From: a virus
Virus record (IMG/VR): IMGVR_UViG_3300030430_002701
Coordinates: 1-21,099 of that record
Strand: one strand, 5' to 3'
Length of the DNA: 21,099 nt
The position numbers were made by a program, and so were the translations under genes. Below, in pieces: positions 3 through 21,099 of the stretch. The notes under the pieces are model-generated. The model was not told where the DNA came from, did not search any database, and was given only the letters and a program-made list of their open reading frames with translations. Positions within the stretch are counted from its first letter, which is position 1; every line of letters starts with the position of its first letter.

Positions 3-1508
3 CTTGGCTGTGACGGCATCCACGAACACCCCGGCGATGCGTACGGCTACGACGGCGTGATCTACATGCCATGCTCGTCGCATCGTGATTACGAAGCAGC
101 CATCAAGGACCAACAAAAGAAGTACGAAGAGATTGACTTCACGCCGCCTGCTGACGTTCAGGAAGAGGCACAGCGTGGTCTAGACTGGCGGGCCGAGCAT
201 GGCCGCGGTGGCACTGCCGTCGGCGTGGCTCGTGCGCGTGACCTCAGCAACGGCGTGTCTGTCTCACCTGAGACAATCCGCCGATCAGTCAACTTCTTCA
301 CCCGGCATGAGGTAGACAAACAAGCAGAAGGCTTTGAGCGTGGCGAGGACGGATACCCGTCTGCCGGTCGTATTGCTTGGGCGTTGTGGGGTGGTGATCC
401 GGGCAAGCGTTGGGCCAACTCGATTCTTGACCGCATGAAGGCAGAGGATGAACGCGGAGAGAAGGTGACGCGGAGAGAAGGAGAGAGCCTTGACAACTGC
501 GTTGCACGCGGCATCGAGAAGTTGCTGTCAGAAGGGTTCGAGCGTGACCAAGCGGTTGCGATTGCCTACCGACAGTGCGGTACAGCCACCAAGCGTGCCG
601 TTGCTTTGCTGACCGGCATGGAGCCGGAGATGCAGAAGAAGGCGTTCGATGGACCAAGCAAAGAAGACTGGCCCGACCGCACCAAGGACGCCCGCAAGGC
701 AATTGAAGATGTCGAGGACTACGAGCCAGTTCCTGCAACAGAAGACATCCGTGTAGGCGAACCCGCCAACCCTGCCCGCCGTATCCAGACCAACTTGGTG
801 CGGGTACTCGAAGACCAAAAGCGTGAAATCATCAACGCACTGCTGGGAGAGAAGGGCGGCAAAAAGCAGTTTACTCCTGCCAACCTTTTGAATCTGCTGA
901 CCTCGCTTGGTGCGTTTGAGATCAGATATCAAGAAGCAGTTGCCGGGCCGATGGCTGAGGCGACGGCATCGGGTAGCACGTTTGGCACCAATGAGGTTGG
1001 CGTGTCTGCGTCATTCGATGTGACCAACCCCCGAGTGGCGGAGTTTGCTGCAACGTATAGCCAAGAGTTTGCAAGCGAGGCTTCAGCGGCATCACTGCGG
1101 CGTGCGCGCACCGTGATTGCTCGCGGCTTAGAGCAAGGCCAAAGCGTGCAGCAGATTGCTGACCAGATCAGCACTGACTATGCGTTCAGCCCTGAGCGGG
1201 CGACCGTGGTGGCACGCACCGAGACCGCCCGCGCGTTTGTTGAGGGTGAGCGGCTGGGTTGGGAAGAGTCCGGCGTGGTGCGTGGCAAGCAGTGGCAACT
1301 AGCCGCAGGTGCTTGCGCGTTCTGCCAGCAAACTGCCGTCAAAGGAACAGCCAAGGTATTTGCTTTGAACGAACCCTTCTGGAAGAACGGTGACACCATC
1401 TCGGCTGGAGGTGGCACCTATTCTGTCCGATATGGCGATGTGCAAGGTGCGCCACTTCACCCCAACTGCCGGTGCGACATCATCCCCGTGCTTGGAGATT
1501 CTGACTGA
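3..1508 (+). CDS. MuF-type phage head morphogenesis protein, 5'-partial
   Basis: A minor capsid protein of the phage Mu gpF/SPP1 gp7 type, which usually sits with the portal inside the head. The reading frame is open to the left edge, so the gene probably starts outside the window. The first possible start inside is a GTG at 57 with no good ribosome binding site, and residue numbers here count from it. Residues about 27-126 form a small phage domain with the signatures GRGGTAVGVARARDLSNG, RHEVDK and GYPSAGRIAWALWGGDPGKR. Residues 141-174 form a second small module (NCVARGIEKLL, then DQAVAIAYRQCG). The C-terminal part carries the MuF signature: RTETARAF near 387, then C420xxC423, then HPNCRC at 468-473, a likely metal-binding set. 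Its stop overlaps the next start (TGATG). Family assignment is firm; the roles of the two N-terminal modules are not known to me. Confidence 0.88.
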   Translation, partial: LGCDGIHEHPGDAYGYDGVIYMPCSSHRDYEAAIKDQQKKYEEIDFTPPADVQEEAQRGLDWRAEHGRGGTAVGVARARDLSNGVSVSPETIRRSVNFFTRHEVDKQAEGFERGEDGYPSAGRIAWALWGGDPGKRWANSILDRMKAEDERGEKVTRREGESLDNCVARGIEKLLSEGFERDQAVAIAYRQCGTATKRAVALLTGMEPEMQKKAFDGPSKEDWPDRTKDARKAIEDVEDYEPVPATEDIRVGEPANPARRIQTNLVRVLEDQKREIINALLGEKGGKKQFTPANLLNLLTSLGAFEIRYQEAVAGPMAEATASGSTFGTNEVGVSASFDVTNPRVAEFAATYSQEFASEASAASLRRARTVIARGLEQGQSVQQIADQISTDYAFSPERATVVARTETARAFVEGERLGWEESGVVRGKQWQLAAGACAFCQQTAVKGTAKVFALNEPFWKNGDTISAGGGTYSVRYGDVQGAPLHPNCRCDIIPVLGDSD

Positions 1509-3538
1509 TGAATGAACTGAACCCAACCGAATACGGGTTGAAGTCTGATGTGCCAACCGTCTGGCGTGAACTGTCAATCAAGAACATCGAGGTTGACCAG
1601 CCCAAGCGGAGCGTGCTTGCGTACATCACCACGGATCGTGTGGACGAAGAAGGCGAGGTGGTTGTGCCTGAGGGCATCGACTTCTCACGCTTTAAAAAGA
1701 CGGGTACTGTGTTCTACAACCATGACTACGCAGCACCGTGCGGTGTTTGCACAAGCATCAAGCACACTGACCGTGGCATCATGGCAGTCACGCAGTTTCC
1801 TGAGCGTCCAGTTGGGTACGAGGGCAAGTGGCTGCCTGATGAAGTTTTTGCCATGTTTGCATCTGACCCGCCGATTGTTAAGGCGTTCAGCATCGGATTT
1901 GCGTACACCCAAGTACGCCAGCCCACCAAGAAAGACTTTGACCGATACGGCCGTGATGACATCAAGCGAATCGTGAGCAAATCACGCATGCTGGAATACA
2001 GCGTTGCACCCTTGCCCATGAACGAAGACGCCATTGCCGTACAAGTCACCAAGCAACTTAATGACAACGGCGACGTAGCCGATGTATGTAATTGTTCGCA
2101 GGCATCGTGCGAGAACCCTGACAGCGTCAATTGTCGCCAGGCAATTGAAGGAGCAGAGCAGGCATCAACGACTCAGCCAGAGCGAAGTCCTAATGATTCT
2201 GAAACAAAGGAAAAAACCATGTCGGAAGATATCCGAAAGAAAATGATGGTTGACCTCAAGCCAGACATGACCATTGCCGAACTCATGGCTGCCATGACAA
2301 TGGAAGATGAGGCCGACGCTGTGCGTGCTGAGGTTGAGGAAGACGTCCGTAAAGCAGAACACGATGACGAAGAAAAGAAGAAGCAAGATGACAAAGACGA
2401 GAAGGCAGCCAAGTCTGCTGTCGCCCTTGTCGCTGATCTTGTCAAGAAGCAAGCAGCAGAAGGCCGCCGTCGTGTTGCCGCTGCCACGCCAATCGTGACT
2501 GCACCTGTTCTCAAAGGCAACCTGAAGCACCTGAAAGATGCCGAAACCGCACACGGTCTTGGTCAGTTCTTCTTGGGTTCTATGGGCAACAAGTCCGCAC
2601 AACAGTGGGTCTCGGATCGCTACGGTGTCAAGGCACACGGCGAAACCAACAACTCGCTTGGCGGCTTCTTGGTTCCTGACGAACTGGAGCAAGCAATCAT
2701 TGACTTGCGTGCACAGTTCGGCAAGTTCCGTGCAAACACCCGTGTTCTCAACATGAGCCGAGACACCTTGCTTATCAACCGTATCGCTGGCGGCCTGACC
2801 GCTTCGTTCGTTGGTGAAGGTTCCTCGATCAGCGAGACTGATGCTTCGTTTGACCAAGTCTCCTTGGTTGCTCGCAAGGCTGCCACGTTGACCAAGTACA
2901 GCCGTGAGTTGGCTGAAGATTCCGTTGTGAATCTCGGCGACTTCTTGGCTGGCGAAGTCGCTCGTGCGTTTGCCAACACAGAAGACGAAGCAGGCTTCAA
3001 CGGTGATGGCAGTTCAAGCAACGGCGGTATCGTCGGACTGAAGAACGCCGTTGGCTCTGCTGGTATCAAGACCCAAGGAACAGGCAACACGTTTGCTCAA
3101 CTTGCTCTTGGTGACTTGACCGGCACTGTTGGTCTGGCCCCTGAGTTTGTCTTCTCGCAAGGCACTCCAAAGTGGTACATGTCCACTCAGTTCTATCACA
3201 CAGTTGTGCTTGACATCCTTGGCGATGCAGGCGGCAACACCAACCAGTCACTGGCAAACGGTGTGGGTGCACCATCTCTGTTTGGCTATGAAGTTGTGCT
3301 GACTGATGTGATGCCAAAGGCAACTGCCACTGCCACAATCTGTGCGTACTTCGGCGCACTCGAACTCGGTGCAACGTTGGGTGACCGGCGTCCAACCGAG
3401 ATTGCCGTAAGTGAAGATCGCTTCTTTGAAGCCGACCAAATCGGTGTTCGTGGAACGACTCGCTTTGACATCAACTGCCACGACGTTGGTGACAGCAGTG
3501 CCGCTGGTGCTATTGTTGCCCTCAAGACCGGCTCCTAA
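1508..3538 (+). CDS. Prohead protease-scaffold-major capsid protein fusion (HK97 fold)
   Basis: A 676-residue polyprotein joining the head maturation protease to the capsid protein. Residues 1-180 match the HK97-type prohead protease family (U35). The likely catalytic His72 is in FYNHD, Ser128 in KAFSIGF, and an acidic residue, Glu163, in LEYSVAPLP. Residues 190-237 are a linker with four Cys at 194-209. Residues 240-320 are charged and helical, like a scaffolding delta domain. From about 345 to the end the protein reads as an HK97-fold major capsid protein, with GGFLVPDELEQAIIDL and GEGSSISETDASFDQVSL typical of the N-arm and E-loop region. The protein would be cut after assembly, leaving the capsid part. 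A strong Shine-Dalgarno and ATG at 2219, in frame, could also make the 439-residue scaffold-capsid part alone. Most relatives keep protease and capsid as two genes. Confidence 0.92.
   Translation: MNELNPTEYGLKSDVPTVWRELSIKNIEVDQPKRSVLAYITTDRVDEEGEVVVPEGIDFSRFKKTGTVFYNHDYAAPCGVCTSIKHTDRGIMAVTQFPERPVGYEGKWLPDEVFAMFASDPPIVKAFSIGFAYTQVRQPTKKDFDRYGRDDIKRIVSKSRMLEYSVAPLPMNEDAIAVQVTKQLNDNGDVADVCNCSQASCENPDSVNCRQAIEGAEQASTTQPERSPNDSETKEKTMSEDIRKKMMVDLKPDMTIAELMAAMTMEDEADAVRAEVEEDVRKAEHDDEEKKKQDDKDEKAAKSAVALVADLVKKQAAEGRRRVAAATPIVTAPVLKGNLKHLKDAETAHGLGQFFLGSMGNKSAQQWVSDRYGVKAHGETNNSLGGFLVPDELEQAIIDLRAQFGKFRANTRVLNMSRDTLLINRIAGGLTASFVGEGSSISETDASFDQVSLVARKAATLTKYSRELAEDSVVNLGDFLAGEVARAFANTEDEAGFNGDGSSSNGGIVGLKNAVGSAGIKTQGTGNTFAQLALGDLTGTVGLAPEFVFSQGTPKWYMSTQFYHTVVLDILGDAGGNTNQSLANGVGAPSLFGYEVVLTDVMPKATATATICAYFGALELGATLGDRRPTEIAVSEDRFFEADQIGVRGTTRFDINCHDVGDSSAAGAIVALKTGS
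2206..2221 (+). promoter_or_regulatory. Internal in-frame ribosome binding site and start for scaffold-capsid product
   Basis: AAAGGA at 2206-2211 lies 7 bases before an ATG at 2219-2221 that is in frame with the protease-capsid fusion (codon 238). It falls exactly between the Cys-rich linker and the charged scaffold domain. The spacing and sequence match the best start sites of other genes in this window. Translation from here would give a 439-residue scaffold-capsid protein in excess over the protease fusion, like the nested C/Nu3 arrangement in lambda. That it is used is inference. Confidence 0.55.
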
Positions 3539-6167: not shown

Positions 6168-6587
6168 ATGCCTTCAAACCGTATCACCGGATCCGATGGT
6201 CAATGCACCGTTGCGAGCCACAACATCCTCTTCAACACTTGGTCAGCAACCTTCTCGCAGGTTGTCTCTGATGTCACCGCCTTCGCTGATTCGTTTGCAC
6301 AGAAACGTGGCGGCCTTATGTCCGGCACATTCTCTGCTTCTGGCATCATGCAAGACAACGACGGAACAACAGAGCCGATGCCAACTTCAACCGACATCTT
6401 GGCCTTCAACAAAGTTGGTGAGGATGTGACTTTGCAAACCGGATCGACCAGCAAGGCTTTGAGCCAGTGGTCGTTCAAGGCTGTCATTGGCAACGTGTCA
6501 CCTACCAGCACGCAAGGCGGGGATGCCTCGATCAGTGTTGACGGTGAGTCTACTGGTGACATCACCTTGACTTGGGATGAAACCTAA
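6168..6587 (+). CDS. Major tail (tube) protein
   Basis: A 139-residue acidic, Ser/Thr-rich beta protein. It starts at ATG 6168 behind AAAGGA, the strongest ribosome site in this part of the tail module, as expected for a protein needed in many copies. The features are a K-R-GG turn after FADSFAQ, GTFSASGIMQDN, and a closing VDGESTGDITLTW. The pattern and position (after the tail terminator, before chaperone and tape measure) fit a small siphovirus tail tube protein. I do not see a C-terminal Ig-like domain. Confidence 0.7.
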   Translation: MPSNRITGSDGQCTVASHNILFNTWSATFSQVVSDVTAFADSFAQKRGGLMSGTFSASGIMQDNDGTTEPMPTSTDILAFNKVGEDVTLQTGSTSKALSQWSFKAVIGNVSPTSTQGGDASISVDGESTGDITLTWDET

Positions 6588-6589
6588 GC

Positions 6590-6835
6590 ATGGCAAAGAA
6601 GTCGCCCGATGATTGGGTGTCGGTCGTACAGTTCAGAGGGCTGAAGACTGGCAAGATCATCACGAGGAAGTGCGGCTCCTCGGCTGAAACACTTGAGGAG
6701 GCACAGCGTTGTGCCATCTCGCTCTATCGTTTGACCAACGACATCAACCGTTTGGTCAGTATTGAAACCAAGCGGCGGCGGGACTGGACGGAAACCACAG
6801 TCTCGCTGCCGCCTAACTTGAGAGGAATGACATGA
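6590..6835 (+). CDS. Small tail-module protein, function unknown
   Basis: An 81-residue basic protein beginning 3 bases after the tube gene. It has one Cys pair far apart in sequence (28 and 41 approximately), a helical middle (ETLEEAQRCAISLYRL) and a charged tail (SIETKRRRDW). I recognise no family. It overlaps the chaperone gene by 4 bases (ATGA). Position between tube and chaperone would suit a tail assembly accessory protein, but nothing in the sequence proves this. Confidence 0.65.
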   Translation: MAKKSPDDWVSVVQFRGLKTGKIITRKCGSSAETLEEAQRCAISLYRLTNDINRLVSIETKRRRDWTETTVSLPPNLRGMT

Positions 6836-7266
6836 TCAAAGAAGTCACGATCACACTTGACGGGCAAGAGTTCACTGTGCCACGCCTGACGGTTCGCCAG
6901 ATCCATGAGGTAGGGCAACGCATTTTTGAGGTACGCCGCAAAGAGATGATCAGCGACTGCCAAGCCGTGGGCCTGAACAACGAGCAGACTGTGGCGAAGG
7001 TCTCTCAAATGCGTGAGGCTTGGGACCAAGGCACAGAGGTCAAGCGGCAGGCGTACACCGAACTTGGTGCGCGTCTGTTTATTGGTGCAGCCTTGACCGC
7101 CGCAAAGCATCAGCCCGATGTGCTGGATGCCATCAGCGATCTAGGCGAACTGGCATCAGCGTCGGCAGAAGTGTGTGGGCTTTGGAATCCGTTTGCTGAG
7201 GGCAACGAACAGCCCGAAGAAACTGACCCGGAACTTGAGGAGATCAAGCCGGACAATCAAGGCTGA
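6832..7266 (+). CDS. Tail assembly chaperone, short form (gpG-like)
   Basis: A 144-residue protein directly before the tape measure gene, where siphoviruses encode the chaperone that coats the tape measure during tail assembly. It opens with VTITLDGQEFTVPRLTVRQI, a common start for such proteins, has a long helical middle, and ends in an acidic tail (PEETDPELEEIKPD). The acidic tail leads into the -1 reading frame described in the next entry, which is open across the stop codon. This is the usual arrangement of a lambda G/GT-type pair. Confidence 0.7.
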   Translation: MIKEVTITLDGQEFTVPRLTVRQIHEVGQRIFEVRRKEMISDCQAVGLNNEQTVAKVSQMREAWDQGTEVKRQAYTELGARLFIGAALTAAKHQPDVLDAISDLGELASASAEVCGLWNPFAEGNEQPEETDPELEEIKPDNQG

Positions 7267-7418
7267 CGCCGGGCTTGAGTTGGGTAAAGCGTGACTGGAC
7301 ACGAGAACGTGCGTTGCTTGCCCACTTCTTCCCCGGCGTCGGTGAGCCGATAGAACTAACATTGCCTGAGTGGAACGGACTGCTTGGGCAGGTCGAAGAG
7401 TTCATCAAGTTGAGGTGA
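7239..7418 (+). CDS. Tail assembly chaperone -1 frame extension (gpT-like part)
   Basis: The frame one base back from the chaperone is open from 7239, after a stop at 7236, to TGA at 7416-7418. It has no ATG. It reads through SWVKRDWTRERALLAHFFPG, then LTLPEWNGLLGQVEEF, a sensible protein filling the 155-base gap before the tape measure. This is the pattern of a programmed -1 frameshift making a long chaperone. The shift must lie between 7239 and 7264. I see no canonical X XXY YYZ slippery site there, so the mechanism is open. Start by re-initiation at TTG 7275 (47 residues), with AAGG at 7259-7262, is the alternative. The end overlaps the ribosome site of the tape measure. Confidence 0.65.
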   Translation, partial: GDQAGQSRLTPGLSWVKRDWTRERALLAHFFPGVGEPIELTLPEWNGLLGQVEEFIKLR

Positions 7419-7421
7419 TAT

Positions 7422-8828
7422 GTGGCTGAACTACCTGCTGGCTCCCTGACGATTGATGTTGGCGCGAACATTGGACCGCTTGAAAAAGGTTTGAACCGCG
7501 CACAGCAAAAGGTTGTGCAAGCGGATCAACAGATTGGTCAGGCAGCGCAGCAAGCACAAGGTGGTTTCTTTGAGGCTGCTGGAGCAGTGCAAGGATTCCA
7601 AAGCAAACTGTCAGCGGCCCTCGGTGTGGTTGCTGGGTTTGCTGCTGTTGGTGCTATTGTTGGCGGGGTTGCTCAAGGCTTCAGTGACGCAGCCGAAGCA
7701 GTCGAAGGAGCAAACGACAACATTGATGCTTTTGACAAAGGCGTTGATGCGGTCTTCTCCAAAATACCAGTGTTCAACCAGTTTGCCGCTGCCGGTCGCC
7801 AACTCGCGATTGCTCTTGGCTTGGCTGCTGATGAAGCCAAAGAACTTGCAGAAGCAACCGCAAGAACAAATCAAGAACAAGCAGGGTTCAAAGTATCCGG
7901 GCAAGCGCGTGTCAAAATCGCTCAGAATGAAATTGACATTCTCAAACAAAGAGGGCGCTTGTTGGAGGCAGACAATAAAGCAGCCGAACTGGCATTTGAT
8001 CAACAGATTGCGCAAGCACAAGCACTACGAGTAGAGGCTGCAAAGAACAGAGACAGCAACAGCCAAGTGGTCAAAGTTCTGCAATCGCAAGCCGACGAGT
8101 TAGAACGGCAAGCAAGGATCCAGCGCGCTCTTGCTGAAAATCAAGCACGAATTGACAACGAGAAGAGAGTCAGCGAGCAGATCAAGGAGACAAACCGTCT
8201 CATGGACGAAGCCCAACAAATGAACCGGGCGCGCAATGAGGCAATCGCTGAGGTACTGCAAACTGGGGAGGAAGAACTTGAGATAGCACGCTTGCGGCTG
8301 GAGTTGGCACAGACTTCAGACGAGGTGGCAAAGAACGAGTTGCAGACTGAGATTGACCGGCTGCAAATCGTGTCGAAGTTTGAATCTGAACTAGAGGCCA
8401 TCAATGCTTTGTTTGACGAGAGGAAACAGAAACTTGAAGAGGTTGATGGCGCGAGTGAGTTGCTTGCAGAGAATGAGGCCAAGAGACAACAAGCGCAGAA
8501 CAATCTGTTTTTGCGGCTACGATCTGAGCAACTCAGAAAACAGTTGGAGGACTCAAATCGGTTGGCGAAAGCGCAGCAGGATCAAATCAAAAAGCAGCAA
8601 GAAGAAGAACGCAAAGCCGACGAGGAACGCCGCAAAGCCTTCAGTGTAAGATCAGTAGGTGAGACCGCGATTGGTGCTTTCAAGTTTGCACTGGCAGCCA
8701 GCCCAAGCGTAAAGACCGGTGAAAGCAAAGCGGATCAAGAAGCACCCAAGCAGACGCAGGTGCTTGAAGCAATCGAGACGGTTCTAAACCAAATCAAACA
8801 GCAACAGACAGGTGGCGCATTGACATGA
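7422..8828 (+). CDS. Tail tape measure protein, short
   Basis: A 468-residue protein with GTG start at 7422 behind GAGGTGA. Residues 1-45 (LTIDVGANIGPLEKGLNRAQ) match the usual opening of tape measure proteins. Residues 65-88 are hydrophobic and glycine-rich, the typical membrane-active segment. Residues 135-430 are almost entirely helical, rich in Gln, Glu, Ala and Lys, and form long coiled coil. No peptidase or lysozyme domain is visible. Tape measure length sets tail length at roughly 0.15 nm per residue, so a tail of about 70 nm is inferred if the whole chain counts. It overlaps the next gene by 4 bases. Confidence 0.82.
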   Translation: MAELPAGSLTIDVGANIGPLEKGLNRAQQKVVQADQQIGQAAQQAQGGFFEAAGAVQGFQSKLSAALGVVAGFAAVGAIVGGVAQGFSDAAEAVEGANDNIDAFDKGVDAVFSKIPVFNQFAAAGRQLAIALGLAADEAKELAEATARTNQEQAGFKVSGQARVKIAQNEIDILKQRGRLLEADNKAAELAFDQQIAQAQALRVEAAKNRDSNSQVVKVLQSQADELERQARIQRALAENQARIDNEKRVSEQIKETNRLMDEAQQMNRARNEAIAEVLQTGEEELEIARLRLELAQTSDEVAKNELQTEIDRLQIVSKFESELEAINALFDERKQKLEEVDGASELLAENEAKRQQAQNNLFLRLRSEQLRKQLEDSNRLAKAQQDQIKKQQEEERKADEERRKAFSVRSVGETAIGAFKFALAASPSVKTGESKADQEAPKQTQVLEAIETVLNQIKQQQTGGALT

Positions 8829-9715
8829 CCGTGACATCAACAGAACTCGGCGACACTGGCGGCTTGCAGTTTGACGCAGCCGGGCCGACCACAACGACGC
8901 AACGCCGCTTTGTTGTAAAGGCTGATTCCGCCGAAGACAAACTAGAAACCGACCTGATGGCAATCCAAGCCACCGGCGTTGGCATCGGATCCTTTCACCC
9001 GGACTATCCAACACTTGTCTGCGTCAAGATCCGTGGCAAGCGTGACGCTGACAACACGCTTGTATGGCGTGTGACTGCTGACTACAGCAGTGACTCTCTG
9101 ATCGGTCCAGACATTGGTCCGGGTCCGGGCTTCAAACAAACTTGGAACCTTGCAGTGCAGGCCAAGTTTAAGGACGCATTTCGACGCCCGCCGGGTGCAA
9201 CTGAGACCGCACCTGCAAACTTCAGCAACCCAAACGAGGGTGCTGCACTGGATGGAGATATTGGAGGCATCGCCGTTGACTCTGGCGGCGATCCACAAAG
9301 CGTGCTGGACACTGAACCGAGGCTTGTCATTGACGTTGAGATTGAGACAAACCCAACGTCGGCAGTGTCTTTTCTAAGCGATCTGCTGACGTATGCTGGC
9401 AAGCGCAACTCAAACACCTTTCTTGGTGCAAAGGTTGGACAGTTGTTGTACCTCGGTGCCAACAGCCGATTCCTTGGCAACACACAGTTTGGGGCCAAGT
9501 ATGCTATTCAACATGTGATTGCTTTTGACGAGTACTACCACCGAGTACAAGTTGCAGACCGTGACTTAGGCAGGCAAGGCCAATATGTGATTCGGCTGGG
9601 GGCTTCAAGTGACACTGACGGCGGGCAGTTGTATGTTGGCAAAGCGTTTCAAGTCACTTACAAACAACCTTTTCCAGAGTTGTTTGACTTTCGCAACCTA
9701 GGCATTCGACTGTGA
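8825..9715 (+). CDS. Tail protein after the tape measure, family not recognised
   Basis: A 296-residue acidic, beta-rich protein, with no signal peptide or membrane segment. It stands where siphoviruses place the distal tail or tail tip protein. Visible blocks are a central linker with PGPGF and RRPPGATETAPANFSN, a turn rich in Gly and Asp, then a C-terminal half with SDLLTYAGKRNSNTFLGAKV and VIAFDEYYHRVQVADRDLGR. That half has a strand-rich feel like a baseplate hub or tip protein. Start ATG 8825 overlaps the tape measure stop. Role in the tail tip is inference from position. Confidence 0.6.
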   Translation: MTVTSTELGDTGGLQFDAAGPTTTTQRRFVVKADSAEDKLETDLMAIQATGVGIGSFHPDYPTLVCVKIRGKRDADNTLVWRVTADYSSDSLIGPDIGPGPGFKQTWNLAVQAKFKDAFRRPPGATETAPANFSNPNEGAALDGDIGGIAVDSGGDPQSVLDTEPRLVIDVEIETNPTSAVSFLSDLLTYAGKRNSNTFLGAKVGQLLYLGANSRFLGNTQFGAKYAIQHVIAFDEYYHRVQVADRDLGRQGQYVIRLGASSDTDGGQLYVGKAFQVTYKQPFPELFDFRNLGIRL

Positions 9716-10353
9716 GCCAGATACCACCGATTACAACAGGGCTTGGCAACTTCACGCCTGAGGTGTGGTCAAGGATGTCCAACTCAATCTATCAAAGCGA
9801 ACAGTTCTTTGGTGATGTCAGGCCGCAGCAGAAAGTAGCACAACCAAACCCTGTGACTTTTCCTGTGAAGATTACGGGCTGGGTCATGATTAATGAAGCA
9901 AGCGGGCAGGATTTTACAAACCCAAAGCGGCAGTTTTACTACACATGGCAAGAGGTCGCTTTGAAATTCAATATCAACAGCGGTTTCACGTTTGAGACTC
10001 TTGACGGTGCGAGAACAAGTGGAACGATTGCTGATGATGACTTCACACCAGCAATCAATGGAAGTGAAATCGGCGTACCTACGTCCCGAAGCGGTTCTTT
10101 TTTAGGTGTCAATTTGGAAGGCAACGAGTATCCACCAGTGGCAATGATGCCGTCGGTCAATGGTGATACCGTTAATGATTGCGGGGAACTTAATCAAAAC
10201 GGATCAAGCAATGGACCACTTGTAATGCTTACGATTTTGAAATGTAAGCAGGATGATGACGATCCAAATGCCGGTTCAGGTTTTCGCCAGTTGCCGTTTG
10301 TGGGTTTATTTTATTCAGCATTCTTACTTGACGGGTGTTGTGAGAGTAAGTAA
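9712..10353 (+). CDS. Tail-module protein, function unknown
   Basis: A 213-residue protein with GTG start at 9712 overlapping the previous stop (GTGA). It has no recognised domain. It contains FPVKITGWVMI, a Trp- and aromatic-rich stretch FYYTWQEVALKF, and ends in LDGCCESK with paired Cys. The next protein opens with three Cys, so disulfide or metal links between these two are possible, though unproven. GC content is visibly lower than in the head genes, a trait shared with the following gene. A tail tip or adhesin subunit is the likely class. Confidence 0.6.
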   Translation: MSQIPPITTGLGNFTPEVWSRMSNSIYQSEQFFGDVRPQQKVAQPNPVTFPVKITGWVMINEASGQDFTNPKRQFYYTWQEVALKFNINSGFTFETLDGARTSGTIADDDFTPAINGSEIGVPTSRSGSFLGVNLEGNEYPPVAMMPSVNGDTVNDCGELNQNGSSNGPLVMLTILKCKQDDDDPNAGSGFRQLPFVGLFYSAFLLDGCCESK

Positions 10354-11961
10354 ATGCTGATTCGCAAGAAAGACTGTTGCTGCAAAGGTGATAACACAGG
10401 GCCGCCGCCACCAAAGCCACCAGATGTTCCGTTTTGGGTTGAATGCTTCCCTTTGATTCTAAAGAATAAATTTCGAGCAAGTTTCTTTGGGCCGTCTGGT
10501 GAGGTTCAATCTGTGCGATTTTGGTGTCACATGAGACCGCCTGCCCAGTTTCCTTTTCCAAACCCCGGAAACATACCTACCGCATGGGCTAATGGTGACA
10601 ACTACTATTGGTATGACGGGTTTCAAGGTTGGGAGATTTTGCCAAACTCAACGATTGTGCAACAAGGATCAGACCCCAACCTGCCCTTGGGCGGTCCTGT
10701 GGAAGGCAACTACTATGTGTCGTTGCCAAACAGACCAGACCAAGATTTGATGCAGTTCGATGAACTTTTTACAAACCCAAACACCAATTTATTTGTCACG
10801 GTCAGCGTGTTCAACGAACAGCAGCGATTCAGGTACGGAGAAATACAAGTTGGACATGTCCTTATGCCGCACGGTTCAATCACTGGAACCAACAGAGGTG
10901 TCCCTGAGAGTGGCTTACAGCCACACAACACTTTTGACATTGTTGACAGTACCCTTGGATCAGGATCGCTTCATCTTGGTTCTGGATTACTTATGTGGAG
11001 CAACCCCGGCCGCGACGGCTCGTCACTTGATATAGCCGGTGCGTACAGGGCTGGCTCAAGGCCAAGCGGTGTTGGGTTTAGTTGGGTGTTCGAAAATCAC
11101 TACCAACGCAGCGGCTTTGGGTATCACCCAGTTCAAAACAACGCGCCAACAGAAATCCTTTGCTCGGTCGTACGAACCACACCAATCAAAGTTTGTAATT
11201 ATGATTCAGCAGGAAGTTTGCTTAGTACCCAAGACGTCTCTTTTGCTGTTTCAGACAATTCTCTTTCTCTTGATGATGTCGCTTTAGGAAACAAGCAATT
11301 CACCGGCGTTGAAACTTTGAGCGTGAATACCTCAGGATTGCCCTTCACCCAATCTTCGATTTCTAACTCTGTTGTTTTCCAAGCCTCTTACGGATATACC
11401 GGAGTTTCTTTTCCGGAAGTTTCGCCACCCCGCTTTTGTGGAGGATCTCAAGATGACAGCCTTACAGGATCCTTCGACGGGAACTGCACCGCTTTAGATT
11501 TGATTGAGTCATACCAGATCTCACAAATGACTATTCATGACCAGATACAAAGAGTAGGCCAACCAACTTCTTTCTCATGTGGATCAACATCTAACGTAAA
11601 TTTTCTCGACCCAGGTGAACTCGCTGGCCTTCAATATGCTTCGGTGGAAGCAGGCTTACCAAAGGCTCTACAACTCCAAGAGTGCTCTAAGCCGAGGGAG
11701 TGTTCGAACTCCGAGGGGATTGATACTGGATTCTTGTCCGGATTCAACAGCCAGGCTGCTCACCTTGGGACAGAATCTTACTCAAGGTCAGATTTCAACG
11801 GCCTCAATACCGTGGATGCAAACATTGAAGCCCGCGATGGTCACGTGATTCAAACGACAAACAATATTTTGCAGACCGGTGGGGTTATCATTGCTGCTGA
11901 TTCTACCTCAGCAACACTTTTCTCTCACGTTCATTTGGCGACAATCAATGGTGGTTCGTGA
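10354..11961 (+). CDS. Large tail protein, possible receptor-binding protein
   Basis: A 535-residue protein starting right after the previous stop. The N-terminus has a triple Cys (DCCCKGD) followed by a proline hinge (GPPPPKPPDVP), as in anchored fibre or tip proteins. The middle is aromatic- and Gly-rich (WANGDNYYWYDGFQGWEIL) and the C-terminal third is Ser/Thr/Asn-rich with scattered Cys. It ends in strands with VIIAADSTSATLFSHVH. No enzyme motif is seen. GC is about 40-48% in the lines I counted, against 55-58% in neighbouring genes, so the gene may have been exchanged recently. Receptor binding is inferred from place, size and composition only. Confidence 0.6.
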   Translation: MLIRKKDCCCKGDNTGPPPPKPPDVPFWVECFPLILKNKFRASFFGPSGEVQSVRFWCHMRPPAQFPFPNPGNIPTAWANGDNYYWYDGFQGWEILPNSTIVQQGSDPNLPLGGPVEGNYYVSLPNRPDQDLMQFDELFTNPNTNLFVTVSVFNEQQRFRYGEIQVGHVLMPHGSITGTNRGVPESGLQPHNTFDIVDSTLGSGSLHLGSGLLMWSNPGRDGSSLDIAGAYRAGSRPSGVGFSWVFENHYQRSGFGYHPVQNNAPTEILCSVVRTTPIKVCNYDSAGSLLSTQDVSFAVSDNSLSLDDVALGNKQFTGVETLSVNTSGLPFTQSSISNSVVFQASYGYTGVSFPEVSPPRFCGGSQDDSLTGSFDGNCTALDLIESYQISQMTIHDQIQRVGQPTSFSCGSTSNVNFLDPGELAGLQYASVEAGLPKALQLQECSKPRECSNSEGIDTGFLSGFNSQAAHLGTESYSRSDFNGLNTVDANIEARDGHVIQTTNNILQTGGVIIAADSTSATLFSHVHLATINGGS

Positions 11962-14595: not shown

Positions 14596-15003
14596 ATGAT
14601 CAGCACACTGATTGCAACCGTAGCCCTGAGCATCGACATGACACCGCTGGAGCGTGCCATCTGGCAGGTCGAAACCAACTGCCGCACTGGCGAAATCTGG
14701 GGCGACAACCATACCAGCGCGGGCGCGTTCCAGATCGGCAAGCCGTACTTCACAGACAGCAAAATCAAGGGCAAGTGGCCCGATGCCGTCTTTGATCTGG
14801 ACACCAGCGTGCTTTGCTTTCGGGCTTACATGGAGAGGTACTCCAAGCCTCACCGCATTCCGGAAGGCATGACCAAAGCCGAAGCGATGGCCCGCATGCA
14901 CAACGGCGGCCCTGCTGCCCTGCGTGCTACAGGCAAGAAGAAAGAGAACCTTGACCGCTATTGGTCAAAGGTGCAAAAAGCATTGAAGGAGTTGACCCGA
15001 TGA
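14596..15003 (+). CDS. Lysozyme-like peptidoglycan hydrolase (transglycosylase-type fold)
   Basis: A 135-residue protein starting at ATG 14596 behind AAAGGAACTGAC. After a short hydrophobic start (LIATVALS) it shows the lysozyme/SLT layout. Glu26 in IWQVETN is the likely catalytic acid, GDN is at 37-39, GAFQI at 43-47 forms the substrate-cleft strand, and HNGGP at 102-106 is followed by RYW at 121-123. Enzymes of this class cut the glycan strands of peptidoglycan. The short N-terminal hydrophobic stretch might serve as a weak export signal, and no holin is visible nearby. It may be the endolysin, though its place among early genes is unusual. Confidence 0.75.
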   Translation: MISTLIATVALSIDMTPLERAIWQVETNCRTGEIWGDNHTSAGAFQIGKPYFTDSKIKGKWPDAVFDLDTSVLCFRAYMERYSKPHRIPEGMTKAEAMARMHNGGPAALRATGKKKENLDRYWSKVQKALKELTR

Positions 15004-15360: not shown

Positions 15361-15972
15361 ATGACATCTGAGAGGAAGGCCAACGTGTGGACGGCTCTAA
15401 AAACCGCACAACAATCACTTGATGCTGTGGGCAAAGGTTCAAAAAACCAGTTCCACGGATATAACTACACCAGTGCCGAGGACATGCTGAAGGCTTGCCG
15501 CAAGGCGTTGCACGACGCAGGGCTTGTGGCTTACCGCCGGTCGTGGTCTATAGAACAAACCGACTTGGGCTGCATGGTCAACAACCACTTTTGCGTGGCT
15601 CTGGCGACGGATCAGCAAGCCGAAGAAGACTGCCTATGTGCTGAGGTCACATACCCTGCGATACCCGGCAACGGTCGCCCGCTTGACAAAGCCGTGAGTG
15701 CCGCATTGACCACAGCGTTCTCGTACTGGCTGCGTGACATTTTGATGCTGCCACGGGTTGACGGTCTGGAAGTAGACACCCGCGACGATTCAACGTACAA
15801 GCACGATGAGCAAGAAGCCGTCGGCCTTGCGGTTGAGATTGAGGACCGGGCTACCGATGAACAGATGCAGAAGTTGCTTGACGCCTTGCCTAAATACAAG
15901 GCCAGCAAGTTGGAAGAAGTCCCTGTAGTCACCTTGAAAGCGTGGCTCAAAAGAGTGAAGGAAACAGCATGA
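15361..15972 (+). CDS. erf: ERF-family single-strand annealing protein
   Basis: A 203-residue protein behind AGGAGG at ATG 15361. The opening (VWTALKTAQQSLDAVGKGSK, then FHGYNYTSAEDMLKACRKAL) is the ERF superfamily hallmark, in which a K-N-x-F-x-x-Y-x-Y-x-S/T core leads into a long helix. The middle (PLDKAVSAALTTAFSYWLRD) replaces the usual GSaxTYakRY segment and keeps its shape. The tail has an acidic linker and a small helical domain from about 155 (TDEQMQKLLDAL). ERF proteins form rings on single-stranded DNA and promote annealing in phage recombination. The next gene encodes a small SSB-like protein, the expected partner. Confidence 0.82.
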   Translation: MTSERKANVWTALKTAQQSLDAVGKGSKNQFHGYNYTSAEDMLKACRKALHDAGLVAYRRSWSIEQTDLGCMVNNHFCVALATDQQAEEDCLCAEVTYPAIPGNGRPLDKAVSAALTTAFSYWLRDILMLPRVDGLEVDTRDDSTYKHDEQEAVGLAVEIEDRATDEQMQKLLDALPKYKASKLEEVPVVTLKAWLKRVKETA

Positions 15973-16223
15973 AGCAATACAACAAAGTTGGAAATGGTGC
16001 GTTGCACAACAACGGTGAGGTCAGAGGCAATCAACCGCCGTATGGTGGTCCGATTGAGATTGACGGACGCAAGTTGAGGATGTCAGCATGGGTCAAAGAG
16101 AAAGACGGCAAGCGGTACTTTAGTATTGAAGTCACTGAGGTTGTTGAGTTGGACGAAGAGCCAAAGGCTGCATTTGGAAACCAAACCAGAAAGGCGATTG
16201 ACAATGGCGACATCCCGTTCTAA
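15969..16223 (+). CDS. Small SSB-like / DUF736-like protein
   Basis: An 84-residue protein whose ATG 15969 overlaps the ERF gene stop (ATGA). It follows the pattern of small phage OB-like proteins: GALHNNGEVRGNQPPYGGPI, then IDGRKLRMSAWVKEKDGKRY, a strand with FSIEVTEV, and a C-terminus IDNGDIPF. The acidic-hydrophobic DIPF end is the docking tip seen in single-stranded DNA-binding proteins. Coupling to an ERF gene supports a role in recombination. OB-fold function is inferred and not shown. Its 3' end overlaps the next gene by 20 bases. Confidence 0.65.
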   Translation: MKQYNKVGNGALHNNGEVRGNQPPYGGPIEIDGRKLRMSAWVKEKDGKRYFSIEVTEVVELDEEPKAAFGNQTRKAIDNGDIPF

Positions 16224-17055
16224 CCCTTACTTCATGCACGAGGAAACTGCTATAGCATTCAGTGGTGGCCGCACGTCAGCCTTCATGCTTTGGCACATCC
16301 TCGATGCACACGACGGCCAGTTGCCTGAATACGTCAAAGTCGCATTCATGAACACTGGACTTGAACATGAGAAAACACTGGAGTTCGTTAGAGAAGTTCA
16401 GCAGAGATGGAATGTTGACATGGTTTGGCTTGAGGGACCAACCGAGTACCCAGAAGGAAAGAAAACACCAGACACATTTAGGATCGTTGACTTTTGCAGT
16501 GCTTCTCGTAATGGCGAGCCATTAGAGGCTTTGATTGCGGCTCGCAACCATTTGCCTACCGTCGTCATGCGATGGTGTACGGGTGAGTTGAAAATCAAAC
16601 TTGTTCGTAGATATCTAGAGCAAACTTTTGGTTGGGATGAGTATCAGATTACTCTTGGTCTTAGAGCCGACGAACCTTGGCGAGTGGCAAAGATAAATCA
16701 GTACTACAGGAAGGGAGTTGAACAGATAGCACCCATGCACGCTGCTGGCCATGACGAAAATGACGTTTTGAACTTCTGGAAAAATCAGGACTTTGACTTA
16801 GACCTGCCCGGCGGTGACAACACTTTTGGCAACTGTGTTGGTTGTTTTTTAAAGTCTGTTCCCAAACTAAAAAAAATCTGTGACGCCAAGCCAGAACACT
16901 TTGATTGGTGGTCAAGGATGGAAGAAAAGTATGGGATGCAATTTAGACCAGACCGACCATCGTACAAAAATTTGCAGGTTGAATTCAGGGTGCAAGGCCG
17001 ACTGTTTGACGACTCCCTAGTTGATGACTCTATACCCTGCACCTGCACAGACTGA
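16204..17055 (+). CDS. PAPS reductase / DndC-type PP-loop family protein, copy 1
   Basis: A 283-residue protein of the PAPS reductase/ATP-pyrophosphatase (PP-loop) fold. ATG 16204 follows AAAGG and is preferred over an upstream in-frame ATG. The nucleotide loop is IAFSGGRTSAFMLW. Later blocks are MNTGLEHEKTLEFV, RWCTGELKIKLVRRYLEQ, LGLRADEPWRVAK, FGNCVGCFLK and a C-terminal CTCTD. The Cys of RWCT, NCVGC and CTC could bind an iron-sulfur cluster. Family members reduce PAPS, or activate sulfur for tRNA or DNA thiolation. Phage copies are common but their role is unsettled. It is lower in GC (43-47% in lines counted). The next gene is a diverged duplicate. Confidence 0.78.
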   Translation: MATSRSNPYFMHEETAIAFSGGRTSAFMLWHILDAHDGQLPEYVKVAFMNTGLEHEKTLEFVREVQQRWNVDMVWLEGPTEYPEGKKTPDTFRIVDFCSASRNGEPLEALIAARNHLPTVVMRWCTGELKIKLVRRYLEQTFGWDEYQITLGLRADEPWRVAKINQYYRKGVEQIAPMHAAGHDENDVLNFWKNQDFDLDLPGGDNTFGNCVGCFLKSVPKLKKICDAKPEHFDWWSRMEEKYGMQFRPDRPSYKNLQVEFRVQGRLFDDSLVDDSIPCTCTD

Positions 17056-17066
17056 AAGGAACTGAT

Positions 17067-17885
17067 ATGAATTCTTGCAACGCCTATGCAGTTCAAGGGC
17101 CATCGGTTGTCTCATTTTCTGGTGGTCGAACTTCGGGCTTCATGTTATGGAACATCATGCAAGCACATGGTGGCCAAGTACCCAAAGATATCCTTGTGTC
17201 CTTTCAGAACACGGGATTGGAACATCCAGCCACATACGACTTCATCGTTGAAGTTCAAGAGCAGTGGCAGATTCCGATTGTGTGGCTTGAACTTGACATC
17301 TCCGAAGACGGCTATGGCTACAAGGTGGTTGACAAGAATACGGCAGCCAGACAGGGAGAACCGTTTGCAGCGTTGATTCGCAAAAGGAAGTATCTGCCCA
17401 ACCCGATAGCACGCTTCTGCACTGTAGAACTCAAGATCAAGACCCTTGAGCGATACATCAAGAACGTGCTGGGTTGGGAGGATTGGGACAACGCGATTGG
17501 TTTGCGTGCCGACGAGCCAAGACGGGTGGCAAAGATGAAGGCGGATGATCGTAATCTGACACCTGTTGCTGACGCTGGCCATACCAATCAAGATGTCATG
17601 AGGTTCTGGGAGTCACATCCTTTTGACCTCAAACTGCCCGGAGGCAACAACGACTTCGGCAACTGTGTTGGCTGCTTTCTCAAAGGACGCAGCAAACTGG
17701 AGAAAATCATTGACAGCAACCCGGCACACTTTGATTGGTGGGTTGCTATGGAAAAAGAAATAGGGTCAACATTCAGAAGCGACCGTCCAACGTACGAACA
17801 AATGCTGGTGCAAATGACCATACAAGGCCGATTGTTTGATGACTCCATACCTGACGAAAGCATGCCTTGCATGTGCCATGACTGA
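17067..17885 (+). CDS. PAPS reductase / DndC-type PP-loop family protein, copy 2
   Basis: A 272-residue paralogue of the gene before it, starting at ATG 17067 behind AAAGGAACTGAT. It keeps every key block: VSFSGGRTSGFMLWNI, QNTGLEHPATYDFI, ARFCTVELKIKTLERYIK, IGLRADEPRRVAK, FGNCVGCFLK and a C-terminal CMCHD. The two proteins look about half identical by eye, so this is an old tandem duplication, with GC content higher here in part. Conserved Cys positions suggest a shared cluster or active site. The pair might act together or on two substrates. A nucleic-acid thiolation role is one possibility, but no dnd-like partner genes are present. Confidence 0.78.
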   Translation: MNSCNAYAVQGPSVVSFSGGRTSGFMLWNIMQAHGGQVPKDILVSFQNTGLEHPATYDFIVEVQEQWQIPIVWLELDISEDGYGYKVVDKNTAARQGEPFAALIRKRKYLPNPIARFCTVELKIKTLERYIKNVLGWEDWDNAIGLRADEPRRVAKMKADDRNLTPVADAGHTNQDVMRFWESHPFDLKLPGGNNDFGNCVGCFLKGRSKLEKIIDSNPAHFDWWVAMEKEIGSTFRSDRPTYEQMLVQMTIQGRLFDDSIPDESMPCMCHD

Positions 17886-18618: not shown

Positions 18619-18824
18619 CGCCAGCACGCATAGACCATCTGCGAGACGTGACCAAGCGCATCTTGATAACAAGCCAATGCCTTAACGACCTAAGCCAAAA
18701 CTTGATGGCGGAGCAACCGACTGATCAGGAACTGAACACGCTTGATCAGTTCATCATTCGGCTGCAAGGTCAGATGATTGAACTGGACGATGCTGCCCAA
18801 AGCCTACAGGGGGACTTGGTATGA
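18615..18824 (+). CDS. Small helical protein, function unknown
   Basis: A 69-residue protein with ATGA overlaps at both ends. It is helical and amphipathic (RIDHLRDVTKRILITSQCLN, then LDQFIIRLQGQMIELDDAAQ). No family is recognised. Its coding sequence contains an inverted repeat around 18721-18752. It immediately precedes the replication-type gene. Confidence 0.55.
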   Translation: MTPARIDHLRDVTKRILITSQCLNDLSQNLMAEQPTDQELNTLDQFIIRLQGQMIELDDAAQSLQGDLV

Positions 18825-19501
18825 ACTTCGCATTCGTCAAGTGGTACCCCGGTGCGTTCATGGCTGGGACTGCTCACCTGTCCAACGAAGAGGTGGGTGC
18901 TTATATCCGACTTCTCTGCTGGCAGGCGCAGTCCGGCGAACTGCCCAACGACTTTGACCGCCTGAGCCGTTTGGCGGACGGAATGAGTCTTGATTCATGG
19001 AAAGCCATCAGGGACAAGTTCCAAGTGGACGAGGCCACCGACGGTTTGTTCAACGAACGGATGAGATCAGAAATGACAGCAGCAGCCGACCGTGTCGCAA
19101 AGGGCCGAAGGGCTGCCGACACCCGGTGGGGAAAAGAGGAGTATGCAAGGGCATGTGCGGATGCATTGCCGACCCATATGCCAAAGAAAGAAAGAGAGAG
19201 AGAAAGAGAGAAAGAGCCTCAGCAATCTCTGACTAAATCTAATACCGATCCGGAGTCAAGGCTGCATGCTTCTGGCCTCGATCCCGAATCATCGCCATAC
19301 AAGGTCGAGGTTGCCCGCTGGGGCGTTGCAAACGGTTTGACGCCTACCACGTCCATGATTCTTCCTCGGCTCGTAGCGGGCATCCACGGGCCAGCAAAAG
19401 GAAAGGTCTGGTTGCAGGACTTAGACTCACGGATTGCGACAGCAAAGAATCCAGCGGCATATCTACGCGGTGCCATCAAACAGGAGTTTGGAAGATCATG
19501 A
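18821..19501 (+). CDS. DUF1376-type phage replication protein
   Basis: A 226-residue protein starting at ATG 18821 (ATGA overlap). The N-terminus (FVKWYPGAFMAGTAHLSNEE, then VGAYIRLLCWQAQSGELP) matches the DUF1376 family: a short Y-P-x-D/G-F opening, then an L-S-x-E-E-x-G-A-Y-x-R-L helix. These proteins are linked to phage replication initiation, often as the N-terminal part of a primosome-type protein. Residues 121-132 are a Lys/Arg/Glu run (KKERERERE). It is encoded by a 34-base purine tract and works as a hinge. The C-terminal part (VARWGVANGLTPTTSMILPR ... AAYLRGAIKQEF) is a small helical domain. ERF nearby supports a replication-recombination role. Confidence 0.75.
   Translation: MNFAFVKWYPGAFMAGTAHLSNEEVGAYIRLLCWQAQSGELPNDFDRLSRLADGMSLDSWKAIRDKFQVDEATDGLFNERMRSEMTAAADRVAKGRRAADTRWGKEEYARACADALPTHMPKKEREREREKEPQQSLTKSNTDPESRLHASGLDPESSPYKVEVARWGVANGLTPTTSMILPRLVAGIHGPAKGKVWLQDLDSRIATAKNPAAYLRGAIKQEFGRS
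19183..19216 (+). repeat. 34-base homopurine (GA-rich) tract inside the replication gene
   Basis: An unbroken run of 34 purines, mostly GAAA and GA steps, encodes the KKERERERE hinge of the DUF1376-type protein. Such microsatellite-like runs can slip in replication and can form triplex DNA. It lies at the domain boundary. Confidence 0.9.
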
Positions 19502-20354: not shown

Positions 20355-20381
20355 TTGCCCGCGCGCGCGTGCGCGTATAAC
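20355..20381 (+). promoter_or_regulatory. Possible promoter with alternating GC spacer
   Basis: TTGCCC at 20355-20360 and TATAAC at 20376-20381 are spaced by 15 bases, shorter than the usual 17. The spacer is a strictly alternating purine-pyrimidine run (20360-20379). It would start transcription about 24 bases before the phosphoesterase GTG at 20412. Weak on spacing, supported by position after a terminator. Confidence 0.3.
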
Positions 20382-20411
20382 AGAATCACGCGGTCCTGCC
20401 GATATACAAAC

Positions 20412-21099
20412 GTGGATACGGCACGAATCGCAGCAGTCTCTTGCAGCCACTCGCCATTCACCAGCCCTGTTGCTCACGCACGGCTGATGGAGTTGCTTGA
20501 TGATGTCGGCCCTACCTTGACGCATTTCGTCCACTGCGGCGACCTTCTCGAAGCAGCAGCAGCCAGCGTCCATGCAGACGAGCATGACCACACGCTTGCT
20601 GACGAGTTCGAGCATGCCAGCAACTTCCTGCGGTCGATCCGAGAAGCCTTGCCTGAGTCCTGCCGCCTGATCTGGATGAACGGCAACCACGATGACAACA
20701 TCTTCAAGCGTGACCCGCGACGGATCCCAAAGGCTCTGCGGGACATGATCGAGATAGGCCGCGATTCTCGTTGGCCTGAGTTCTCTCATTGGACGCAACA
20801 CCCGTATGCAAAGAACCAACGTGGGCAGGTACAGATTGGGCAGGTGGTCTTCTTTCATGGCTTTGATGCCGGGCAGACTTCAGACGAACTTGAAGCGTTG
20901 CAGTTCAACAACATCACTGGCGGTCATTCTCATCGTCTGTTCGTCCGTGGTCACACGCACCGACCCGTTCCACCTACCCAATGCCACCGAACCCGCAAAG
21001 TTCCTTTGCCTTACTGGTATGCGAACGTGGGTACTCTTGGGCCACTCACGCCGGACTGGGCAAGCCGTATGGATACCTCTGCATGGGGTGCTGCGTGCC
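20412..21099 (+). CDS. Calcineurin-like metallophosphoesterase, 3'-partial
   Basis: The frame is open to the right edge (229 codons seen). I place the start at GTG 20412 because homologous sequence begins there, though no good ribosome site precedes it; ATG 20487 would cut off the first motif. The motifs run in order: IAAVSCSHSPF, with H13; HCGDLLEA, with GD at 43-44; NGNHDD, with GNHD at 91-94; FFHG, with H149; and RGHTHRP, with GHTH at 180-183. YANVGTLGP at 203-211 closes the fold. These bind two metals and cut phosphate esters; phage members act on nucleic acids, nucleotides or 2',3'-cyclic ends. The usual Asp of the first D-x-H motif is Cys11 here. Confidence 0.85.
   Translation, partial: MDTARIAAVSCSHSPFTSPVAHARLMELLDDVGPTLTHFVHCGDLLEAAAASVHADEHDHTLADEFEHASNFLRSIREALPESCRLIWMNGNHDDNIFKRDPRRIPKALRDMIEIGRDSRWPEFSHWTQHPYAKNQRGQVQIGQVVFFHGFDAGQTSDELEALQFNNITGGHSHRLFVRGHTHRPVPPTQCHRTRKVPLPYWYANVGTLGPLTPDWASRMDTSAWGAAC

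Follow-up and report, generated by a model that had tools for sequence, protein, structure and literature searches.

Two adjacent NinC-type genes in a viral recombination operon have SspD-like rather than CysH-like sequences and most likely stem from two phages

SspD is a PP-loop protein of the SspABCD system for phosphorothioation of single-stranded DNA; it acts together with SspA, SspB and SspC, and it was reported to bind the desulfurase SspA (PMC7188994). In DndC, a [4Fe-4S] cluster is held by three cysteines, and a separate cysteine dyad is thought to carry the sulfur (PMC10853773). Phage lambda encodes NinC (orf290), the gene of which is non-essential (PMC10695390), and no interaction of NinC was found in the lambda two-hybrid map (PMC3224144). 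Literature searches for a function of NinC or for phage phosphorothioation by NinC yielded no paper, and no biochemical work on any NinC was found in the literature. Viral genes annotated as cysH are reported to be among the auxiliary metabolic genes with the widest distribution in viruses, and they are read as the viral part in sulfur cycling (PMC9301287); a literature search for a critique of viral cysH was negative.

The window, i.e. the whole stretch of DNA that was analysed, is a linear IMG/VR virus contig of 21,099 bp, which includes an HK97-type capsid gene. Its early operon consists, in this order and on the plus strand, of genes for an ERF-family ssDNA-annealing protein (15361..15972; PHROG_155), an SSB-like small protein (15969..16223; PHROG_18154), the NinC/SspD-like PP-loop proteins P1 (16204..17055, 283 aa) and P2 (17067..17885, 272 aa), a 100-aa protein encoded directly 3' of P2 (17897..18199), small ORFs and a primosomal or replication-initiation-like protein (18821..19501; PHROG_9327, DUF1376). 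P1 and P2 are complete ORFs with 11 nt between them, and the start of P1 overlaps the 3' end of the SSB-like gene by 20 nt. Direct reading of the P1-P2 junction (17050..17071, plus strand, GACTGAAAGGAACTGATATGAA) revealed the P1 stop codon, the ribosome-binding sequence AAAGGAA and the P2 start codon, and the same element was read at the junction downstream of P2 (17880..17899, plus strand, GACTGAGAGGAACTGTAATG). No signal above chance for a sigma-70-type promoter or a terminator was detected around the operon. The ERF gene near the pair, which had been noted in the initial annotation, was verified (PF04404, E 6.5e-12). The 100-aa protein had been called zinc-ribbon-like; only scattered Cys and His residues could be retained from this description, and a family search gave no match.

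P1 and P2 had been described as an about half identical pair of the PAPS-reductase/DndC superfamily, and this was borne out by their BLASTP comparison (49% identity, 68% positives, single-comparison E 1e-102) and by the presence in both proteins of all motifs that had been quoted. The profile of PHROG_424 matches the whole of P1 and P2 (E 2.9e-52 and 8e-53), and lambda NinC falls into the same family (E 1e-89). P1 and P2 share with lambda NinC the PP-loop SGGRTS and the CT..LK and GNC..C motifs, and P1 and P2 also have the C-terminal Cys pair of the family. As in the operon studied here, lambda NinC is encoded among recombination genes, next to NinB; it differs in being a single copy, in its C-terminal segment (SCSESCEIF) and in overall sequence (36% identity to P2 over 205 aa). 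Relatives in phages are annotated as PAPS reductase or as NinC. In P1 the PP-loop comprises residues 20-25, and the invariant cysteines are C125 (WCTGELK), C211/C214 (GNCVGC) and C279/C281 (CTC tail); the equivalents in P2 are C118 (FCTVELK), C200/C203 and C268/C270 (CMC tail). These five residues, all kept by P1 and P2, are 100% conserved among 78 relatives, in agreement with the earlier description of Cys-rich proteins. Of the 62 alignment columns with a conservation of 90% or more in the 78 other family members, P1 has kept 59 and P2 61.

If the usual view of viral cysH in virome papers (PMC9301287) were applied, P1 and P2 would be ordinary PAPS/APS reductases, i.e. auxiliary metabolic genes that feed the infected host with sulfite or sulfide. 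In favor of this, a match to Pfam PAPS_reduct was obtained (E 2.9e-5, with P1 just above and P2 just below the cut-off), DTG and RKV/LK regions are shared with CysH/APS reductases, and the fold also agrees with a Z of about 13 (P2 model with 2goy: Z 13.2, 176 residues, 3.6 A). However, the scores are far below the NCBIfam cut-offs for CysH and APS reductase (17.8 and 11.2 bits versus 154, and 16.2 and 11.8 versus 235). The catalytic C-terminal segment ECG(L/I)H, with E232, C233, G234 and H236 invariant in 12/12 real CysH proteins, is absent from P1 and P2, both of which end with C-x-C-x-D. The first loop is degenerate in 12/12 real CysH, whereas the ATP-type PP-loop SGGRTS is intact in NinC-type proteins, and P1 and P2 have one Cys where the APS type has a CC pair. 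Further points against a role in sulfate assimilation are that the SspD profile is nearer than the CysH profile, that the neighboring genes process DNA, and that a real CysH query found 3 of 50,697 phage records, compared with about 500 that contain NinC. By their sequence features neither P1 nor P2 is an assimilatory PAPS reductase, and a cysH function is regarded as very improbable.

The PADLOC model for SspD matched the pair with E values of 4.6e-14 and 3.2e-17, in comparison to about 3e-4 for DndC, and across P1, P2, lambda NinC and other family members the SspD matches ranged from 1e-12 to 1e-18. For a profile comparison nine SspD proteins were aligned, two of which had a confirmed adjacent SspC. 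The NinC family matched SspD with 99.7% and E 1.3e-25 in hhalign, while the E values were 6.6e-10 for DndC and 6.3e-7 for CysH, and a function in nucleic-acid sulfur modification, as had been suggested initially, is more plausible than sulfate assimilation. In the hhalign alignment Cys118/200/203 of NinC coincide with Cys90/175/178 of SspD, which belong to the motifs CT..LK and C..C. The alignment does not extend to the C-terminal Cys pair; such a pair, in the form CxxC, is also present in eight of the nine SspD proteins, the ninth being truncated. Length, PP-loop and an (I/L)R.DE..R and a GC..C motif are also common to both groups, and the differences are SGG(K/R)DS in SspD versus SGGRTS in NinC and the CxxC versus the CxC tail. 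Because true SspD proteins reach E values below 1e-90 and P1 and P2 score far more weakly, the two proteins are homologous to SspD, but they are not SspD orthologues. Ten genes around the pair gave no PADLOC match, an operon with SspA, SspB and SspC is thus not seen here, and a cysteine desulfurase, SspB, SspC, DndD and DndE were not found in the window, which is a linear 21-kb fragment. DndC resembles P1 and P2 in the PP-loop and in the RWCT..(L/M)K and GCW.C motifs, but the examples used were about 100-230 residues longer, its profile match was weaker, Dnd partners were not found with the pair, and the cut-off of TIGR03183 was not reached (12.5 and 12.3 bits versus 290.4). The PDB entry 21fy, 'PptA', gave a weak sequence match (E 0.017-0.043) and was absent from the fold-search list (library to April 2026). 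Taken together, the label "PAPS reductase" seems to hide an SspD-like enzyme.

The AlphaFold models of P1 and P2 were confident (pLDDT 93.3 and 92.2), with a flexible and less confident C-terminal CxC tail. In addition to the reductases, the P2 model matched LarE with [4Fe-4S] and NcsA, and the P1 model matched LarE with [4Fe-4S], TilS, NcsA (6scy), CysH and 5mkp, which is a tRNA thiolase with a [4Fe-4S] cluster. The candidate Fe-S ligand cysteines are conserved among the 78 relatives, and P1 and P2 probably bind a cluster. The predicted fold alone does not pick a function. The matches to 6scy and 5mkp would fit TtcA/NcsA-like tRNA thiolases acting on the tRNA of host or phage in the course of infection; these enzymes belong to the same superfamily and likewise depend on an Fe-S cluster. 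Nevertheless, the sequence profiles favor the SspD branch, the window is devoid of tRNA genes and the recurrent neighbors of the family act on DNA, so that a role as tRNA thiolases appears quite unlikely.

The genomic neighborhood of the family was analyzed in a sample of 120 non-redundant loci. There was no dominant partner gene, the most frequent one being present in 16 of the 120 loci. Recurrent neighbors encode a cytosine methyltransferase, terminase, primase/helicase, Sak4, NinB, another DNA methyltransferase and RusA, and no sulfur-assimilation gene was found among the annotated recurrent neighbors. Isolate phages agree with this picture, i.e. genes for SSB, a DNA methyltransferase and a Holliday-junction resolvase occur near NinC-type genes.

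On balance, it is probable that P1 and P2 are NinC-type PP-loop ATP pyrophosphatases whose mode of action on nucleic acid resembles that of SspD/DndC, and that the pair is a product of recombination. Persulfide sulfur would be taken from a host cysteine desulfurase; host IscS could fill this role, for which no protein was found in the 21-kb fragment. The sulfur would be carried on an Fe-S site formed by the C-T motif and CxxC and/or on the flexible C-terminal CxC tail, the acceptor would be activated with ATP, and the sulfur would be moved onto nucleic acid. The likeliest acceptor would be phage DNA in single-stranded form, handled by the neighboring ERF and SSB-like proteins. Several points count against sulfur transfer: the PP-loop difference between SspD and NinC, the lack of an Ssp or Dnd partner in the window, the dispensability of lambda ninC (PMC10695390) and the missing two-hybrid interactions (PMC3224144). 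A more far-reaching version, in which NinC-type proteins are stand-alone SspD-like sulfur transferases without SspB/SspC and the two proteins of this phage have different targets, resulting in two DNA sulfur marks or a two-part enzyme, is considered to have a small chance only. The two-subunit enzyme that had been suggested initially found no support, and the P1 type and the P2 type each occur alone elsewhere.

The strongest characterized homologue of the pair is a subunit of a defense system, and DNA methyltransferases, which are typical anti-restriction genes, often adjoin the family. In addition, ninC is dispensable in lambda in laboratory hosts (PMC10695390). These observations would be compatible with counter-defense, in which NinC-type proteins hamper the host Dnd, Ssp or type-4 BREX systems, which contain the homologous DndC, SspD and BrxP, by competing for the desulfurase or the DNA complex, or self-mark the phage DNA; two alleles would then cover two host systems. 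All catalytic residues have been kept, however, which would be needless in a pure decoy, and we regard counter-defense as unlikely, although worth considering.

As to the origin of the pair, the initial annotation had assumed an old duplication. The near-colinear phage fragment L003 (ERF 97%, SSB-like protein 82% and 100-aa protein 75% identical) has a single NinC gene directly after the SSB-like gene. This gene is the P2 orthologue (93%; dN/dS 0.11), and its first codons stand where those of P1 do. As L003 has a single gene at the site, related phages do not conserve the pair. One copy each was found in L004, L005 and L083. A search for the FGNCVGCFLK pattern at the DNA level yielded L294, the lone NinC of which is of the P1 type, with 65% identity to P1 and 56% to P2 and with the same insert and C-terminus as P1; searches of viral contigs with P1-specific peptide patterns gave no match. 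The stop of the L294 gene is overlapped by a gene for a small protein (11054-11431) that looks nuclease-like by eye. In the phylogenetic tree P1 and L294 grouped with a support of 100/99.9, and P1 and P2 as sisters were rejected (AU p 6e-8), as was a group of P1, P2 and L003. The reading as an old duplication therefore fails, and a local tandem duplication was ruled out by the AU tests. An ancient duplication with repeated losses would need at least four losses plus the separate survival of P1 in L294, and it is not the simplest history. The simplest one is that recombination put a P1-type allele before the resident P2-type allele, and the pair is most likely the result of a recombination that set the NinC alleles of two phages side by side. 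Two allelic types, each normally alone at the site in a different lineage, would now be arranged head to tail, with the stop-RBS-start junction that is native to the locus repeated between them. The P1-P2 junction and the junction after the single L003 gene (GACTGAGAGGAACTGATATGAA) are identical at 21 of 22 bases, and the exact P1-P2 junction occurred in no other viral contig. P1 has a deviating codon usage (z -3.9), which was set aside as a proof of recent gain, as several tail-region genes deviate likewise.

The family is ordinary, and the pairing is unusual. Searches of 50,697 phage records found lambda NinC homologues in 501 records, at one place each, and P2 homologues at 483 places in 483 records, again one each. 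In 52 additional viral or phage records, which were scanned in full, one copy each was likewise found, and the initial view that a kept pair is unusual was confirmed. The pair is rare because a phage normally carries only one version. L159, a Bordetella prophage locus, L087 and L222 each have two genes of PHROG_424 at a distance of no more than about 2 kb, but these belong to different and much more divergent subfamilies. In L159 they lie at 7998-8852 and 9717-10574, and one of them is closer to lambda NinC (32% over 292 columns). L018 was rejected as a second pair, as its extra copy is incomplete and fused to another gene: the partial NinC at 6290-7439 follows in frame after a deaminase-like start and has the appearance of a chimera that arose by assembly or recombination.

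That such chimeric NinC fragments exist, that the pair is confined to one metagenomic contig and that its junction is in no other viral contig raise the question whether the pair might be an artificial join made by assembly, or else a transient recombinant that is redundant and lacks its own function, in which P1 decays. Six private changes were counted in P1 at positions that do not vary among eight relatives, compared with two in L294 and none in P2, and the P1 branch is faster (0.51 versus 0.14). In contrast, P1 is full-length with all invariant cysteines, the RBS/start junction matches, and P1 is in translational overlap with the gene before it. The pN/pS between P1 and L294 was 0.26 (with dS saturated), and the relative-rate test depended on the outgroup, with p from 0.005 to 0.77. 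P1 is thus under constraint, but in view of the six private changes at otherwise invariant positions it may be drifting or specializing. An artefact or a functionless recombinant is possible, but doubtful.

The sequence evidence on the NinC branch points to a chemistry like that of SspD, directed at nucleic acid, in operons for recombination and replication, and many of the viral genes called cysH may have been misread. If this is true, many virome statements on sulfate assimilation need to be revised, and a direct test becomes available for lambda NinC, which is unexplained although lambda is a model phage. With two alleles of the same enzyme family in a single operon, the pair is also a natural experiment.

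Three further genes of the window are worth mentioning. The major capsid gene (1508-3538) has a fused N-terminal prohead-protease-like domain (Peptidase_S78 and Phage_capsid). A destabilase-type lysozyme-like protein (PF05497), from a family that is unusual among phage endolysins, is encoded at 14596-15003. An ORF on the plus strand at 20355-21098, which is open and runs off the end of the window, contains the metallophosphoesterase-like motifs CGDLLE, GNHDD and GHTHRP. The lambda nin region also encodes a phosphatase, NinI, and this ORF may be a second nin-like gene.
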